Positions 453-17,452 of a DNA stretch of 26,029 nt are shown one piece after another; positions within the stretch are counted from its first letter, which is position 1; each line of letters begins with the position of its first letter. Where the stretch lies: positions 1-26,029 of IMG/VR virus record IMGVR_UViG_3300028917_000452. One strand, given 5' to 3'. Source of the DNA: a virus. The translations under genes and the position numbers were made by a program. The notes below the pieces were generated by a model, which was given only the letters and a program-made list of their open reading frames with translations, ran no database searches and was not told where the DNA came from.

Positions 453-635
453 TTAATGATAACCAAGCCGAGTCTTTCCTCGATAAGGATATAAAGGGCA
501 AAATCTACAAGTACAATCTTTTGGGTGAGTTTCATAACCCAAACATTCAGTACAAAATAATTTAATTGCTAACTGACGAGTTAAATTTACATGTTTTGTA
601 TCGCCATCACGGGTATTAATTATATGCTTTTTCAT
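453..635 (-). CDS. Small Cys-rich phage protein (CPLYPYR type)
   Basis: A 60-residue protein with Cys28-x2-Cys31 followed by Cys41-x-Cys43-x2-Cys46 and then PLYPYRGK. This arrangement (KCxxC ... CxxxxCPLYPYRxG) recurs in small proteins of many phages of proteobacteria and Firmicutes, and the cysteines probably bind one zinc ion. Its biochemical role is not known to me. The ATG overlaps the stop of the helicase-loader gene (TCATGA) and has GAGGG just upstream, so it is translationally coupled to the replication genes and probably belongs to the same leftward transcript. Confidence 0.7.
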   Translation of the reverse strand: MKKHIINTRDGDTKHVNLTRQLAIKLFCTECLGYETHPKDCTCRFCPLYPYRGKTRLGYH

Positions 636-1231
636 GATTTTCCCTCAAAATTAGGACTAAAATGCTGATCCCAAGCTTCTTGACCATATTGACTTATAAT
701 CCATGATTTATATTCTGAAGTAGTTAAATCCCCACATTTAGCTCTTATTAATCTCGCTGGATTTAATTGAGGCATATGAAATTGAACTCCTTGCTGTACT
801 TCTTCACATAATGCACCATAAATTCGTGCAAATTTGGAATATAAAGTTGCATCATCCAAATATTTCCAATCATAAATTTTTTTGCGGGTATAGTAAATAA
901 TAGGATGTTTATAATTTTCAATTTTAGCTAATTCAAAAGCTCGCTGAGTATCAATTAAATTAAAGGCTAAAAATCTAAAACGTGCAATAGTAGGTACATA
1001 TGGTTCTTCATTTCGACATCTATCCAAAGCTATTTTAATTTGTTCATCATTTAAATCCCTAATACCTTTCATCCAATTATTAACAACTAAATCATAACTA
1101 TCTTTTGAAGTAATACTTTTATTGAATGATGAATATAATGCCATAAAGATAGCAACAATCTTCTCAGCGCTTTGTCGTCTATTTTTGATTAAAATAGATG
1201 TCCATTCCTGTTTTTGCTGTTCTATTTGCAT
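632..1231 (-). CDS. Lambda P-like helicase loader
   Basis: A probable replication protein that brings the host DnaB helicase to the phage origin. The start chosen here is the ATG at 1231, giving 199 residues, because it has a strong GGGAGA ribosome binding site 5 nt upstream; an upstream start at 1309 would add 26 residues and lacks one. About residues 25-95 carry the pattern of the phage lambda P family: a helical segment (FMALYSSF), then WMKGIRDLNDEQIKIAL, a Cys-Arg pair, and the PYVPTIARFRFLAF element. The gene overlaps the end of the O-like initiator by about 50 bases in another frame, the same O-P order as in lambdoid phages. Similarity is judged by eye and is distant. Confidence 0.65.
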   Translation of the reverse strand: MQIEQQKQEWTSILIKNRRQSAEKIVAIFMALYSSFNKSITSKDSYDLVVNNWMKGIRDLNDEQIKIALDRCRNEEPYVPTIARFRFLAFNLIDTQRAFELAKIENYKHPIIYYTRKKIYDWKYLDDATLYSKFARIYGALCEEVQQGVQFHMPQLNPARLIRAKCGDLTTSEYKSWIISQYGQEAWDQHFSPNFEGKS

Positions 1232-2054
1232 TTTTAATCTCCCATATTCGATTATAATGTTTACTTGGTCCCAAAAATGTTTTCGCCATATAAACATATT
1301 TAGTACCAATTATATTTTCCGCCTCACAATATTTGCGATATCGCAAACATCCATCAATTATTTTTTGATGATCTTCTCCTTCTCGTAATCGTGCTTGCCA
1401 TTTTTGTTGAGCAGTGAACCAATCATCACTTGGCGAACGATTAGGATAATTTGATTTAAAAAACTCAAAATTTGAATCAATTTTGGTTTTTTTCTCTTTT
1501 CTTTCTTTTTTATATTTTTCTTTCTTTTCTTTTTTATATATATATATAGTATTTAGTAGGGTCGGATTTTCCGACTTTCTTGCAAAGTCATTTACAAGAA
1601 AGTCGGATTTTCCGACTTTTTCACATGAATTAAGTCGGATTTTCCGACTTTCTTGTTTTTGATTTTGCAACAAAGTCGGATTTTCCGACTTTTTTGTAGG
1701 AATTAAGTCGGATTTTCCGACTTTCTTGTTTTCAGCTTTTTTATTTTTATGTCGGATTTTCCGACTTTTTTGTAGTGTAGGCTTATCTGTAATAATCCAT
1801 TCATATTGTCTTAGATCATCTCGATATTGAGAACAAATATAACCAGCATTCTCTAATTCATTAAAAATTCTAAATATTTTATCTCGTTTAGTATGAGATG
1901 TTACAAAATGCTTTTTTTGGATTTTCCAATCAGAAGGATAGGATAATAATTCAATTAAAATACCACGCGCTTCATATGAAATAGTACGATCTCGTAATAA
2001 ATTATTCGAAAATAAAGTATAGTTTTCACTAACTTTTGTTCGCAGAATTACCAT
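1179..2054 (-). CDS. O-like replication initiator containing the origin iterons
   Basis: A 291-residue protein. Residues 1-95 look like a winged-helix DNA-binding domain of the phage replication type (sequential helices around RTISYEARGILIELLS and TKRDKIFRIFNELENAGYI). Residues 95-165 are a low-complexity linker whose DNA contains six iterons (1561-1765). A Lys/Glu-rich stretch (about 170-190) matches the AT-rich tract. The C-terminal 95 residues (FFKSNYPNRSPSDDW, then a TKYVYMAKTFL element) resemble the C-terminal domain of many phage replication proteins. This is the lambda O plan: the initiator binds repeats within its own gene, and a P-like loader follows. The ATG at 2054 has a weak ribosome binding site overlapped by an inverted repeat (2058-2072), suggesting autoregulation. 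Confidence 0.75.
   Translation of the reverse strand: MVILRTKVSENYTLFSNNLLRDRTISYEARGILIELLSYPSDWKIQKKHFVTSHTKRDKIFRIFNELENAGYICSQYRDDLRQYEWIITDKPTLQKSRKIRHKNKKAENKKVGKSDLIPTKKSENPTLLQNQKQESRKIRLNSCEKVGKSDFLVNDFARKSENPTLLNTIYIYKKEKKEKYKKERKEKKTKIDSNFEFFKSNYPNRSPSDDWFTAQQKWQARLREGEDHQKIIDGCLRYRKYCEAENIIGTKYVYMAKTFLGPSKHYNRIWEIKNANRTAKTGMDIYFNQK
1481..1560. other. AT-rich tract, probable origin unwinding element
   Basis: An almost pure T/C run on the plus strand followed by an alternating TATATATATATA stretch, directly abutting the iteron array. In lambdoid origins a comparable AT-rich element beside the iterons is where the duplex opens. It is translated as a Lys/Glu-rich linker of the initiator. 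The role is inferred from position and composition. Confidence 0.55.
1561..1765. repeat. Six-iteron array, probable phage replication origin
   Basis: Six exact copies of GTCGGATTTTCCGAC start at 1561, 1602, 1634, 1675, 1707 and 1751. Each is an inverted repeat (GTCGGA/TCCGAC) around TTT, and most are flanked by further A and T pairs. Start-to-start distances are 41, 32, 41, 32 and 44 bp, close to whole helical turns (4, 3, 4, 3, 4). A higher-order unit of 73-76 bp, two iterons each, is repeated three times (from 1561, 1634 and 1707). The array lies inside the initiator gene and beside an AT-rich tract, as in lambdoid origins. Confidence 0.8.
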
Positions 2055-2164: not shown

Positions 2165-2395
2165 CTATTTTTTTAATAACGCAATATCCTCATTTAATTT
2201 TGCAATATTTTCATTACACCGATCGTACAATCGATGCAATAATGCAAACTCATGAGTTTGAGTAAAACTTTTTTCAGAATAATTCCAATACCGAACAGTA
2301 GTTATATTAAGATCAACAAGTCGTGCTATTTGATAATAAGTAAGATCATATTTTCTCATTATATCTTTGATTTTTGTATGTTTTTTATTTTTCAT
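2165..2395 (-). CDS. Small helix-turn-helix regulator
   Basis: A 76-residue protein if it starts at the ATG at 2395, preceded by GGCGGG 7 nt upstream. An ATG at 2410 or a TTG at 2422 are alternatives. The first 35 residues read as a helix-turn-helix (IMRKYDLTYYQIARLVDLNITTVRYW would place two helices around a short turn), followed by a helical, charged tail. It lies immediately downstream of a leftward promoter that is back-to-back with the rightward early promoter. That is the usual place for a Cro/CI-like control protein of a phage, so it probably regulates one or both arms. Not assignable to a named repressor. Confidence 0.6.
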   Translation of the reverse strand: MKNKKHTKIKDIMRKYDLTYYQIARLVDLNITTVRYWNYSEKSFTQTHEFALLHRLYDRCNENIAKLNEDIALLKK

Positions 2396-2432
2396 TATAA
2401 AACCCGCCATAAAATTTAACAAAATTTAGCCC

Positions 2433-3616: not shown

Positions 3617-3814
3617 ATGTTAATTTTAGGCAGACGCTTTGGCGAATCAATTATGATTAATGATGATATTAAAATAACGGTTTTAACACCTGTTAATCAT
3701 GGTAAATGCATCAAAATCGGAATTGAGGCTCCCAAGGAAATTTCAGTACATCGTGAAGAAATATGGCATAAAATTCAATGTCAGAAACATTCTGAAGATT
3801 CTATAAAAACATAA
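3617..3814 (+). CDS. csrA: CsrA-family RNA-binding translational regulator
   Basis: A 65-residue CsrA homologue. The N-terminus [18 protein letters not shown] matches the first strands of bacterial CsrA, and [13 protein letters not shown] matches the C-terminal strand that carries the RNA-binding arginine (Arg46 here, Arg44 in Escherichia coli). The loop between the second and third strands (about residues 24-30) is two residues longer than in E. coli CsrA. The family binds GGA in the loops of mRNA leaders as a dimer and usually blocks translation. A phage copy could redirect host carbon or virulence control, or time phage gene expression. It has a GAGGG ribosome binding site within the end of the preceding gene. 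The identification is secure; its targets are unknown. Confidence 0.93.
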
Positions 3815-6067: not shown

Positions 6068-7243
6068 ATGAAATGGCATAATGAAAAGCGCAAATTATCG
6101 GAATTAAAGCCAACAAAATATAATCCGCGTAAATTAGATAAAAAACAAGAAGATGATTTAACAAAATCACTTACTTCATTTGATTTAGCTGATCCTCTTA
6201 TAATCAATAAAAATAATATAATTATTGGTGGTCATCAACGTTATAAAATTCTCAAAAAAAAGGGAATAAAAGAAGTTGATGTCCGTGTTCCAGATATTGA
6301 ATTATTAGAAAAACAAGAAAAAGAACTCAATTTGAGATTAAACAAAAATATTGGAGATTGGGATTTTGATTTATTAAAACAATTTGATTCAGAATTTTTG
6401 TTAGATATTGGGTTTACAATAGATGGATTAAATTTTGAAATTGAAAAACCTCAAGAAATTATTGAAGATGAATTACCTCAAAATATAGAATCTAAAGCTA
6501 AACTTGGCGATTTATTTGAATTAGGCAGACATCGATTATTATGTGGGGATTGTACAATTGCTGAAAACGTTCAAAAATTGATACAAAATGATATATCAAA
6601 ATTAATGATTACTGATCCTCCATATGGTGTAAATTATGATCCAGAATGGCGAGATGGTTATGGGTTAAATCTGGGGAATAGAAGAAAAGGCATAGTCAAT
6701 AACGATAATATTTATGATTGGTCTATAATTTATGATTTATTTAAACCTCAAATAGTTTATATTTGGCATTCAGGTAAATTTACTTCTTTCGTAGCTGAAG
6801 GATTAATTAATTCAGATTACGATTTAATTTCCCAGATTATTTGGTATAAACAGCATTTTGTATTATCACGTGGAGATTATCATTGGCAGCATGAACCATG
6901 TTGGTATGCGGTAAAAAAAAAATGTAATCATAATTGGCAAGGTGCACGAGATCAAGCAACTATTTGGGAAATTAAAAATAATAACTTTGGTAATCCTCAC
7001 CGTGAAGAAAGTTGGGATCATAGTACTCAAAAACCAATGGAATGTATGGCCAAACCTATTTTGAATAATTCAAAAAAAGATGAGATAATTGTTGATCCAT
7101 TTCTTGGGACTGGAACAACTTTAATTGCTGCAGAGCAGCTTAACCGTATTTGTTATGGAATGGAAATAGAACCTAATTATGTTGATATAATTATTGCAAG
7201 ATGGGAACAATTTACAGGACAAACAGCAAAATTAATAAATTAA
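6068..7243 (+). CDS. ParB-domain / DNA amino-methyltransferase fusion
   Basis: A 391-residue protein. The N-terminal 90 residues are a ParB/Srx-like domain (YNPRK at 18-22 and GGHQRY at 54-59). The rest is an adenine-N6 or cytosine-N4 methyltransferase: the catalytic DPPY is at 183-186 and the S-adenosylmethionine-binding FLGTGTT at 345-351. The catalytic motif precedes the cofactor motif, the beta-class order. Fusions of this kind are common in phages and prophages. No restriction enzyme gene lies nearby, so it is an orphan enzyme that probably methylates phage DNA to evade restriction or regulates transcription. The target sequence cannot be read from the gene. The TAA/ATG spacing to the previous gene is 3 bases. 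Confidence 0.88.
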   Translation: MKWHNEKRKLSELKPTKYNPRKLDKKQEDDLTKSLTSFDLADPLIINKNNIIIGGHQRYKILKKKGIKEVDVRVPDIELLEKQEKELNLRLNKNIGDWDFDLLKQFDSEFLLDIGFTIDGLNFEIEKPQEIIEDELPQNIESKAKLGDLFELGRHRLLCGDCTIAENVQKLIQNDISKLMITDPPYGVNYDPEWRDGYGLNLGNRRKGIVNNDNIYDWSIIYDLFKPQIVYIWHSGKFTSFVAEGLINSDYDLISQIIWYKQHFVLSRGDYHWQHEPCWYAVKKKCNHNWQGARDQATIWEIKNNNFGNPHREESWDHSTQKPMECMAKPILNNSKKDEIIVDPFLGTGTTLIAAEQLNRICYGMEIEPNYVDIIIARWEQFTGQTAKLIN

Positions 7244-15116: not shown

Positions 15117-15188
15117 ATGAATACATATAAATTTGATAATGCCAAAATATGTAAAATAACAACAAAACAATTAGGAGAACAATTGTGA
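15117..15188 (+). CDS. Truncated member of the tiny LGE-tail family (23 aa)
   Basis: A 23-residue frame with AAGGAGA upstream. Its C-terminus ICKITTKQLGEQ is identical to that of the 49-residue gene at 16824, and the underlying DNA is identical for 37 bases (15147-15183 and 16932-16968). The N-terminus keeps only MNTYKFDN, so about 25 codons have been lost in frame. Its stop overlaps the GTG start of the first HEAT gene (GTGA), and its TTA-GGA-GAA codons provide that gene's ribosome binding site. It may persist mainly as a translated leader. Confidence 0.55.
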   Translation: MNTYKFDNAKICKITTKQLGEQL

Positions 15189-15619
15189 ATATAGAAGAAA
15201 AAAATAAACTCAGAGTTATTGACTCTTTGATAAAAACTCTCGACGATAAGTATTCATCAGAGGTCCGCGCTAGCTCCGCAGAGGTTTTAGGAAAGCTAGG
15301 ATATGCTGAGCGGAAGGTTATTGATGCTTTGATAAAAGCTCTCGGGGATCAGTATTCTTGGCAAGTCCGCGACCGCGCCGCAGAGGCTTTAGGAAATCTG
15401 GGACATGCTGAGCCTCACGTTATTGATGCTTTGATTAAAGCTCTCGGGGATCAGTATTCAGATGTCCGCGCCCGCGCCGCAGAGGCTTTAATAAAGCTGG
15501 AACATACTAATCCAAGAGTTATTGATATCTTAATTGATGCCACCTTACATCCTGAGTCAAAAATCCGTAAAAATGCCGTAGAGGCTTTAGGGAAGCTAAA
15601 ATATTCAAAAGAGAATTAA
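15185..15619 (+). CDS. HEAT-repeat protein 1 (4 repeats)
   Basis: A 144-residue protein of four helical HEAT-like (PBS-lyase type) repeats, each about 31-35 residues, of the form DALIKALGDQYSxxVRARAAEALGKLGHAEPxV. The GTG start is supported by the same sequence context (AATTAGGAGAACAAT then NTG AAT) at the starts of the other two HEAT genes. HEAT solenoids bind other proteins; no enzymatic residues are seen, and the PBS-lyase label refers only to the repeat fold. Codons in the VRARAAEAL segments are GC-rich (CGC, GCC, CTG), unlike the surrounding genes. The last repeat has diverged (HPESKIRKNAVEALGKL). Cytoplasmic; partner unknown. Confidence 0.85.
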   Translation: MNIEEKNKLRVIDSLIKTLDDKYSSEVRASSAEVLGKLGYAERKVIDALIKALGDQYSWQVRDRAAEALGNLGHAEPHVIDALIKALGDQYSDVRARAAEALIKLEHTNPRVIDILIDATLHPESKIRKNAVEALGKLKYSKEN

Positions 15620-15629
15620 TTAAGAAGAA

Positions 15630-15726
15630 AATTAGGAGAACAATCATGAATGTAGAAGAAAAAAATGAATCGAAAATTATTGAATCTTTGATAAAAGCTC
15701 TCGGCGATCCGTATTGGCAAGTCCGT
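15630..15726 (+). repeat. 97-bp exact direct repeat (second copy 16954-17050)
   Basis: The ribosome binding site, start codon and first 27 codons of HEAT gene 2 are identical over 97 bases to those of HEAT gene 3. Identity this long, including synonymous positions, indicates recent duplication or gene conversion. Confidence 0.9.
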
Positions 15727-16479
15727 GCCAATACTGCAGAGGCTTTAGGAAAACTGGGACATGCTGACCAGCAGCTTTTAACCCAGGTTACTGAATCTTT
15801 GATAAAAGCTCTCGAGGATGAGGAATCAGATGTCCGCGCCAACGCTGCAGAAGCTTTAGGAAAGCTGGGGCACGCTGAACCGAAGATTATAGATGCTTTG
15901 ATAAAAACTCTCGGTGATCAGAATGCTTGGCGAGTCCGCGCCAGCGCCGCCGAGGCTTTAGGAAAGCTGAAGCATATTGAGCCACAACTTTTAACCCAGG
16001 TTACTGAATCTTTGATAAAAGCTCTCGAGGATGAGGATGAAGACGTCCGCACCCGCGCCGCAAAGGCTTTAGGAAAGCTGGCAGAGACTTTAGTAAAGCT
16101 GGGACATGCTGACCCGCAGCTTTTAACCACGGTTATTGAATCTTTGATAAAAGCTCTCGACGATAAGGATGAAGACGTCCGCGCCAGCGCCATAGAGGCT
16201 TTAGGAAAGCTGGCAGAGGCTTTAGTAAAGCTGGGACATGCTGACCCGCAGCTTTTAACCCCGGTTATTGAATCTTTGATAAAAGCTCTCGGAGATCAGT
16301 ATTCTTGGCTAGTCCGCGCCTACACTGTAGAGGCTTTAGGAAAGCTGGGACATGCTGACCAACAGCTTTTAACCCCTGTTATTGAATTTTTAATAAAAGC
16401 TCTCGGCGATCCGTCTTGGCGAGTCCGCGCCAACGCTGCAGAGGCTTTAGGAAATCTAAAATATTTAGAGGAGAATTAA
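15646..16479 (+). CDS. HEAT-repeat protein 2 (7 repeats)
   Basis: A 277-residue protein built of seven HEAT-like repeats with an 8-residue charged cap (MNVEEKNE). Two repeat lengths occur: a short form of about 32-38 residues and a longer form with an extra LAETLVKLGHADPQLLT or LAEALVKLGHADPQLLT helix (repeats 4 and 5). Residues in the turn before VR vary strongly between repeats (PYWQ, EESD, NAWR, DEDED, KDED, YSWL, PSWR) while the helices are almost identical, which points to a variable binding face. It shares exact DNA blocks with HEAT gene 3 and has the same C-terminal ending as HEAT gene 1 (LKYxxEN). The ribosome binding site is TTAGGAGAACAATC. Confidence 0.87.
   Translation: MNVEEKNESKIIESLIKALGDPYWQVRANTAEALGKLGHADQQLLTQVTESLIKALEDEESDVRANAAEALGKLGHAEPKIIDALIKTLGDQNAWRVRASAAEALGKLKHIEPQLLTQVTESLIKALEDEDEDVRTRAAKALGKLAETLVKLGHADPQLLTTVIESLIKALDDKDEDVRASAIEALGKLAEALVKLGHADPQLLTPVIESLIKALGDQYSWLVRAYTVEALGKLGHADQQLLTPVIEFLIKALGDPSWRVRANAAEALGNLKYLEEN
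15750..15841 (+). repeat. 92-bp exact direct repeat (second copy 17320-17411)
   Basis: One whole HEAT repeat (GHADQQLLT through ESDVRA) is identical at the DNA level between HEAT genes 2 and 3, although it is the second repeat in one and the last in the other. This supports repeat shuffling rather than simple whole-gene duplication. Confidence 0.9.
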
Positions 16480-16481
16480 TA

Positions 16482-16661
16482 ATGAATATAGCTGAATTAG
16501 AAAAGAAAATTCGACAACAAGAAAATGAAATAGATTATTTATTAGACATTAAAGAAGAAGCCGATATTTTAATAGAAATAACGAACGATCATTATGAAAG
16601 ATTAGAAGCAGCCATAAAAGCATATGAATTATGGGAAAAGGAGATTAAAAATGACAAATAA
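16482..16661 (+). CDS. Small coiled-coil protein (59 aa)
   Basis: The ATG at 16482 is preferred, with GGAG upstream inside the end of HEAT gene 2; the longer frame from 16416 overlaps HEAT coding sequence. The 59-residue product is highly charged and has heptad-like spacing of Leu/Ile (LEKKIRQQENEIDYLLDIKE), so it should form a coiled coil. No family is recognised. It may dimerise or pair with a cassette partner. Confidence 0.6.
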   Translation: MNIAELEKKIRQQENEIDYLLDIKEEADILIEITNDHYERLEAAIKAYELWEKEIKNDK

Positions 16662-16680
16662 ATATTACAAGGAGAAATAA
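16651..16680 (+). CDS. Possible 9-codon minigene
   Basis: An ATG preceded by AAAAGGAGA opens a 9-residue frame whose last codons (AAG GAG AAA TAA) form the ribosome binding site of the next gene, which begins at the very next base (16681). It overlaps the end of the coiled-coil gene. It is probably a coupling leader or a decayed gene. Confidence 0.3.
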   Translation: MTNKYYKEK

Positions 16681-16821
16681 ATGAAAACATATTATGTAGT
16701 TGAAATACCTTTCGTTAGATTTTTTACTGATTCTTTTGAAAGAGCAATTGAAGAACAGCAAATGATTGCCGAAATGACTGGAAAAACTCCAAATATTTCT
16801 CAAATTGAATTAGGAGAATAG
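16681..16821 (+). CDS. Tiny LGE-tail family protein A (46 aa)
   Basis: A 46-residue protein beginning MKTYYVVEIPF, with a helix TDSFERAIEEQQMIAEMTGK and the ending QIELGE. It is paralogous to the next gene (MKLYILENPY, then DSLERAVKAARYFEEEN and the ending KQLGEQS): same N-terminal strand, same D-S-x-E-R-A helix, same LGE end. A strong AAGGAGA ribosome binding site lies 4-5 nt upstream. The codons for LGE (TTA GGA GAA) serve as the ribosome binding site of the following gene. The function is unknown; the strand-helix layout suggests a very small alpha/beta domain. Confidence 0.65.
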   Translation: MKTYYVVEIPFVRFFTDSFERAIEEQQMIAEMTGKTPNISQIELGE

Positions 16822-16823
16822 CG

Positions 16824-16973
16824 ATGAAATTATATATTTTAGAAAATCCATATTTACCATTTGAATATAGTTTTGATTCATTAGAACGAGCTGTTAAAGC
16901 AGCTCGATATTTTGAAGAAGAAAATAATCTTATATGTAAAATAACAACAAAACAATTAGGAGAACAATCATGA
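16824..16973 (+). CDS. Tiny LGE-tail family protein B (49 aa)
   Basis: A 49-residue paralogue of the preceding gene, with the DSLERAVKAARYFEEEN helix and the C-terminus ICKITTKQLGEQS. Its TGA overlaps the ATG of HEAT gene 3 (ATGA), and its LGE codons form that gene's ribosome binding site, so the two are translationally coupled. The same 37-base 3' end occurs before HEAT gene 1, where the rest of the gene has been lost. The repeated pairing suggests the tiny protein and the HEAT protein act together or are inherited as one unit. Confidence 0.68.
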   Translation: MKLYILENPYLPFEYSFDSLERAVKAARYFEEENNLICKITTKQLGEQS

Positions 16974-17452
16974 ATGTAGAAGAAAAAAATGAATCGAAAA
17001 TTATTGAATCTTTGATAAAAGCTCTCGGCGATCCGTATTGGCAAGTCCGTACCAATGCTGCAGAGGTTTTAGGAAAGCTGGGACATGCTGACCCGCAACT
17101 TTTAACCATGGTTATTGACTCTTTGATAAAAGCTATCGGCGATTATAATTCATCTTCTGTCCGCGCCCGCGCCGCCGAGGCTTTAGGAAATCTGGCAGAG
17201 GCTGAGCCGCAGCTTTTAACTCTCATTGTTGATTCTTTAATAAAAGCTCTCAGTGATCAGGAGTGGGGAGTCCGCGACTGCGCCGCAGAGGCTTTAGGAA
17301 ATCTGGCAGAGACTTTAGTAAAACTGGGACATGCTGACCAGCAGCTTTTAACCCAGGTTACTGAATCTTTGATAAAAGCTCTCGAGGATGAGGAATCAGA
17401 TGTCCGCGCCAGCGCCGTAGAGGCTTTAGGAAAGATAATAGAAAAAAAGTAA
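16970..17452 (+). CDS. HEAT-repeat protein 3 (4 repeats)
   Basis: A 160-residue protein of four HEAT-like repeats. Its first 27 codons are identical in DNA to HEAT gene 2, and its last repeat is identical to the second repeat of that protein. The two middle repeats differ, with variable turn residues YNSSS and QEWG before VR. It ends LGKIIEKK, unlike the LKYxxEN ending of the other two, so its 3' end was either cut or replaced. It is coupled by ATGA overlap to the tiny LGE-tail gene upstream. It is expected to be a cytoplasmic binding scaffold; the partner is unknown. Confidence 0.86.
   Translation: MNVEEKNESKIIESLIKALGDPYWQVRTNAAEVLGKLGHADPQLLTMVIDSLIKAIGDYNSSSVRARAAEALGNLAEAEPQLLTLIVDSLIKALSDQEWGVRDCAAEALGNLAETLVKLGHADQQLLTQVTESLIKALEDEESDVRASAVEALGKIIEKK

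Follow-up and report, generated by a model that had tools for sequence, protein, structure and literature searches.

A probable lambda/RepA_N-type replication origin embedded in a phage initiator gene

Results

The initiator gene and its surroundings

The window, by which we mean the whole stretch of 26,029 nucleotides analysed here (IMG/VR virus record IMGVR_UViG_3300028917_000452), carries on its minus strand a gene for a phage replication initiator of 291 amino acids (1179-2054), within which the probable origin lies. The product is assigned by profile to PHROG 270 (replication initiation protein; E 1.1e-17 over aa 11-279, most of the protein) and to PHROG 4707 (E 4e-14), and has no Pfam match at E 0.1, including to Phage_rep_O (PF04492) and RepA_N (PF06970). 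An N-terminal winged-helix (wHTH) domain (aa 1-95; 1770-2054, minus strand) is indicated by alignment, by an AlphaFold model and by fold matches, and is predicted to bind the repeats described below. In the model the pLDDT of this domain is mostly 84-97 and its predicted recognition helix comprises aa 57-70, the linker spanning the repeats is of low pLDDT and disordered, and the C-terminal domain is helical. Among the solved structures nearest in fold to the wHTH domain are the RepA_N N-terminal domains 4pql (VIA-align Z 8.0), 4pt7 (7.5) and 5kbj (7.2) and PLE RepA 4ro3 (7.7). The matches to RepA_N are modest, in that common folds score likewise and Foldseek E values are not significant. The C-terminal domain (aa 195-280; 1215-1472, minus strand), putatively partner-binding, matches PHROG 26426, 18526 and 3729 and is common to O-like proteins of Klebsiella, Escherichia and Burkholderia phages, each of which is encoded upstream of a DnaC-like gene.

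The next ORF, which overlaps the initiator gene (632-1309, minus strand), encodes a P-like helicase loader (PHROG 109, E 2.2e-7), and upstream on the same strand is a gene for a small helix-turn-helix regulator (2165-2422, minus strand) with a weak match to a transcriptional repressor (PHROG 14341, E 1.7e-4). The GC skew of the window tracks gene strand and marks no origin.

Six iterons and an adjoining AT-rich tract

All six exact copies of the 15-mer GTCGGATTTTCCGAC lie within the initiator ORF, starting on the plus strand at 1561, 1602, 1634, 1675, 1707 and 1751 and spanning 1561-1765. Elsewhere in the record the 15-mer does not occur at three or fewer mismatches, bar the same six sites on the opposite strand, and with about 8e-6 copies expected from base composition, chance is excluded as the source of the repeat. 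Each iteron is a dyad, GTCGGA-TTT-TCCGAC, whose arms measure 6-9 bp in the different copies. In gene order, on the minus strand, iteron 1 (1751-1765) encodes SRKIR, iteron 2 (1707-1721) VGKSD, iteron 3 (1675-1689) SENPT, iteron 4 (1634-1648) SRKIR, iteron 5 (1602-1616) VGKSD and iteron 6 (1561-1575), which adjoins the AT-rich tract, SENPT. The original prediction, that the distances of 41, 32, 41, 32 and 44 bp each leave remainder 2 on division by 3 and that the encoded peptides cycle twice from N to C terminus in the order given, is borne out by a recount and by the ORF translation.

It had also been proposed that a higher-order unit of 73-76 bp is repeated, and this unit is real: the two-iteron segment at 1591-1659 is 91% identical over 69 nt to that at 1664-1732 at a shift of 73 bp, and a third unit is looser (73/76). 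As 3 does not divide 73, the duplicated DNA is translated in another frame into a different peptide, and other changes must have restored the reading frame. Since the duplication copied the 41- and 32-bp spacings together, only two or three of the five spacings are independent, the chance probability of a constant non-zero remainder is about 0.07-0.2 rather than 2/243, and the constancy may still be due to chance. The further suggestion that the distances are near whole helical turns is weak, since with 10.5 bp to the turn they amount to 3.9, 3.05 and 4.19 turns, and helical phasing fails as a family property, the relatives' spacings of 14-16 bp being off whole turns.

Beyond the last iteron in gene order lies an AT-rich tract (1479-1556; 86% A+T, 78% pyrimidine on the plus strand) that codes for the lysine-rich stretch YIYIYKKEKKEKYKKERKEKKTK and is a candidate unwinding element. 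The least stable 40-mer of the initiator ORF begins 13 bp past the last iteron.

The dyad and the AT-rich tract recur among relatives

Scans of the viral_contigs and genome_contigs sets with the whole protein found no close relatives of the window initiator. Starting from an alignment of the wHTH domains of 12 phage initiators, we collected 195 initiator genes, of which 147 are non-redundant, and some 220 relatives were compared overall; they share ancestry, and the counts given here are therefore not fully independent, kinship being handled by the stated clustering alone. In the post-wHTH regions of the 147 non-redundant relatives a GGA-N3-TCC dyad occurs 164 times, against 18.9 expected from codon shuffles, and when the rule is relaxed the count is 263 against 38.5, with at least two sites in 74 genes. 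The window iteron is by its sequence a member of this dyad class. Averaged over the arrays of 64 relatives, A+T content rises 0.17-0.19 over the gene mean at 20-60 bp past the last iteron and is flat upstream of the first, and in 56 of the 64 genes the least stable 40-mer starts between -10 and +120 bp from the array end, where 10 would be expected.

Exact arrays of the same 15-mer are found in the linkers of proteins of several families: Phage_rep_O (loci L009 and L010), RepA_N (L036), HTH_36 (L023) and PHROG 270/391 (L007). The L011 protein is very similar to the Phage_rep_O proteins of L009 and L010, and close variants of the 15-mer with the same core occur in L016 (RepA_N) and L021 (HTH_36). 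At L381 (536-598) three copies of the 15-mer, with intervals of 23 and 25 bp, fall outside all long ORFs of the gene strand, 26 bp past the stop codon of a 110-aa wHTH ORF (PHROG 270, E 1e-4), and are followed by an AT-rich stretch; this array apparently persists untranslated, and the wHTH-only ORF looks as if it were an initiator minus its C-terminal part.

We note two further occurrences of such dyads. The gene at L018 (4961-6001, minus strand) contains two copies of the TTCGGAAATTCCGAA dyad, and its product has a C-terminal DnaA_N domain (PF11638, E 5e-14), a pairing that is unusual for an initiator. Two contigs from a single Alistipes MAG (L035, 6592-6674; L037, 6783-6906) carry the palindrome three or four times at exactly 41-bp intervals; no recognised initiator ORF surrounds these copies, and they are left out of the support. 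Our literature search did not find the 15-mer in paper text in connection with an origin, and turned up nothing specific on a phage iteron class of this kind.

Iteron spacing is not tied to the reading frame

Among the relatives, neighbour spacings of up to 60 bp are most often 15 (69 cases), 30 (17) or 45 bp (7), followed by 14, 16, 25, 32, 41, 44 and a few others. When a single gene is taken from each cluster at 60% identity, 24 of the 31 arrays keep the frame and seven rotate through frames, stepping by 14, 16, 25, 32 or 41/44 bp; a further, held-out set has 23 in-frame arrays and one that rotates. Spacings other than multiples of 15 leave remainders 0, 1 and 2 in 5, 7 and 14 cases respectively, five of the 14 being supplied by the window itself, and the window spacings of 32-44 bp exceed the unit length of 14-16 bp that is typical of its PHROG family. 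Alignment of relatives, the check proposed with the original prediction, did not find strict rotation at remainder 2 to be kept: the arrays are mostly in frame at 15 bp, and otherwise step by 14, 16, 25 or 32 bp. A conserved remainder-2 rule was accordingly rejected, since remainders are mixed both in these relatives and in lambda (2, 0, 2). What is general is the freedom of iteron spacing from reading frame.

We also note that L007 (9884-10063) has six exact copies of the 15-mer at a perfect in-frame period of 33 bp, encoding VGKSD every time, which is, at the level of sequence, the opposite solution to the rotating array of the window.

The DNA is conserved for itself, and the protein has a preferred frame

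In-frame units were chosen from the protein alone, as E/D-N/K/E-P at 5- or 10-residue steps. The 4-fold synonymous base preceding an ENP-type unit is G in 86% of cases; the figure for the rest of these genes is 27% (Fisher 2e-38). The last base of the Pro codon forms a Watson-Crick pair with its partner across the dyad in 115 of 168 units, against 71.5 expected from the marginals. Constrained synonymous sites and covariation across the dyad argue that the DNA is conserved for itself. Together with the out-of-frame duplication in the window, the lambda-like position of the AT-rich tract and the L381 array outside a long ORF, they uphold the proposal that it is the DNA and not the peptide that is kept.

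The accompanying claim that the linker simply tolerates the repeat is overstated. Of the in-frame arrays, those of 44 genes are read in the ENP frame and those of 11 in the GKS frame; the RKI frame is never used. Where TA precedes GG, which would place a TAG stop in the ENP frame, the GKS frame is used in 6/6 arrays, against 5/49 of the other in-frame arrays, and where the GKS frame would read the loop as a stop codon, the ENP frame is used in 12/12. The pattern across these genes points to a frame preference of the protein that yields to the DNA.

Residue 57 covaries with the iteron flank

In 64 genes the base before GGA could be compared with the wHTH residues: C accompanies Arg or Lys at position 57 in 31 of 35 cases, and T accompanies Ile, Leu or Val in 21 of 25. 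Position 57, the first residue of the recognition helix predicted in the AlphaFold model, has the highest mutual information of all columns (z 5.7; 3.4 for the runner-up), and of 20 non-overlapping pairs of relatives with different bases, 15 have the expected residue change and none the reverse. The prediction was fixed before new loci were fetched and was tested on 24 held-out arrays, in which basic residues go with C and T in a ratio of 10:2 and aliphatic residues in a ratio of 1:3 (p 0.063 as registered; p 0.006 for basic versus non-basic); held-out sister pairs divide 6:0 in the expected sense. With one gene per 60% cluster, Arg versus other residues gives a Fisher p of 0.001 in the training set, and basic versus non-basic falls short of significance (p 0.24) in the held-out set, which is small. 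The window, with R57 and base C, fits the pattern, and the outer flank base x1 correlates weakly with wHTH residues. The covariation between residue 57 and the iteron flank is, on these comparisons, supported but not settled.

Discussion

The locus is best read as a replication origin of the lambda/RepA_N type embedded in its own initiator gene, in which the wHTH domain would bind the iterons, the AT-rich tract would open and a loader would be recruited; we put the probability of this reading at about 0.88. Of what had been claimed for the locus, the origin-type iteron array in an initiator gene stands, and strict rotation as a kept property does not.

The resemblance to the lambda origin in gene O is one of layout: in both, dyad iterons lie mid-gene, an AT-rich tract follows directly and the gene for the loader (P in lambda, the P-like ORF 632-1309 in the window) comes next. 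The annotated lambda iterons, spaced at 20, 24 and 23 bp, fall in frames 0, 2, 2 and 1, so that more than one frame is used, as in the window. The iteron sequences differ (ATCCCTCAAAACGAGGGA in lambda, GTCGGAAAATCCGAC in the window), the window spacing is longer and is variable, and by these searches the window initiator falls outside Pfam Phage_rep_O. RepA_N initiators (pSK41, pTZ2162) and PLE RepA have a wHTH N-terminal domain that binds iterons, and such domains are among the nearest solved folds to that of the window protein, at a modest Z. RepA_N iterons are described as inverted repeats that converge on a poly-A tract (PMC7145576), and the window 15-mer is identical in the RepA_N-type gene of L036 and closely similar in L016; the window protein, however, has no RepA_N Pfam match, and the PLE iterons lie in a non-coding region whereas those of the window are in coding sequence. 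By profile the protein belongs to PHROG 270/4707, and its wHTH relatives share linker GGA-N3-TCC iterons followed by an AT-rich tract, although these are mostly in frame at 15 bp and the window array rotates at 32/41/44 bp. That origin DNA can dictate the linker of an initiator is a phenomenon already known from pSK41 Rep. The four Rep boxes that this protein recognises through its N-terminal domain sit mid-way along the gene that encodes it, and the central domain encoded by the origin is a dispensable linker that can be deleted (PMC5703833); in lambdoid phages gene O carries 4 or 6 iterons, and the six of Stx phage origins add 13 residues to O (PMC7466680).

By analogy with these systems, the winged-helix domain would bind the six dyad iterons as dimers, and the resulting complex would strain the AT-rich tract 13 bp past the last iteron until it opens, the C-terminal domain and the P-like loader then bringing in the host helicase. 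The linker peptide encoded by the iterons would be a flexible by-product. If the iterons are read by the protein as double-stranded DNA, their spacing is free of the reading frame, and the SRKIR-VGKSD-SENPT rotation would reflect two or three remainder-2 spacings, partly copied by the 73-bp duplication.

Plasmid iteron arrays often serve both control and origin, and the window iterons could be handcuffing or autoregulatory sites, for copy-number or promoter control, rather than the origin proper. Six copies exceed the four of lambda, and in Stx phages with six, only four are bound efficiently (PMC7466680), which would leave room for such a role. The array, however, is mid-gene, away from the promoter and joined to an AT-rich tract, and we regard a purely regulatory function as highly unlikely. 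Even less probable in our estimate is conservation for the protein, in which a pentapeptide-type repeat would give the linker its function and the DNA repeat would be a side effect. The in-frame 15-bp units of most relatives (24/31 clusters), with ENP preferred to GKS and RKI unused, are what one would expect from it, but identical DNA copies in the window encode different repeats, synonymous positions are under constraint and vary in concert across the dyad, arrays at 14, 16 and 32 bp rotate frames, and frames differ among relatives, those with TAG in the ENP frame being read in the GKS frame in 6/6 cases.

The remaining alternative, that the dyads are mRNA hairpins or intrinsic terminators on the opposite strand, seems to us the least probable of all. 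Terminator-like features (a stem, a 3-nt loop and a T-run) are predicted on the plus strand for three of the six, but mispaired flanks have no excess of G-U-type pairs on either strand (10 vs 17) and an Rfam search gave no match; this reading also leaves unexplained the near-constant AT-rich tract that follows, and covariation with a wHTH residue would not be expected from it.

An origin embedded in the initiator gene would make the window a clear instance, found in nature, of a DNA element that prevails over protein sequence, and the relatives show how such a conflict may be settled, the peptide favouring one frame and the DNA shifting it where a stop codon would arise. The residue 57 covariation suggests that origin specificity may be readable from sequence in a very large family of phage and mobile-element initiators. 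We see a nearly even chance, tilted slightly against, that the O-like, RepA_N and HTH_36/PHROG 270 proteins form one recognition system with a shared GGA-N3-TCC core, in which residue 57 reads the preceding base pair, Arg or Lys reading C:G and Ile, Leu or Val reading T:A. If so, origin specificity could be predicted, and compatibility groups perhaps inferred, from the initiator sequence alone.

Three other features of the window deserve mention. A phage-encoded CsrA-family regulator (3617-3814, plus strand; PF02599, E 7e-21) lies beside the replication and recombination genes. At 6068-7243 (plus strand) a DNA methylase (N6_N4_Mtase) is joined in a single protein to a weak N-terminal ParB_N-like match. 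Among the tail genes are three ORFs with HEAT-like repeats (15185-17452, plus strand), in a stretch with a GC content of 33-40% compared with about 30% in the remainder of the phage.
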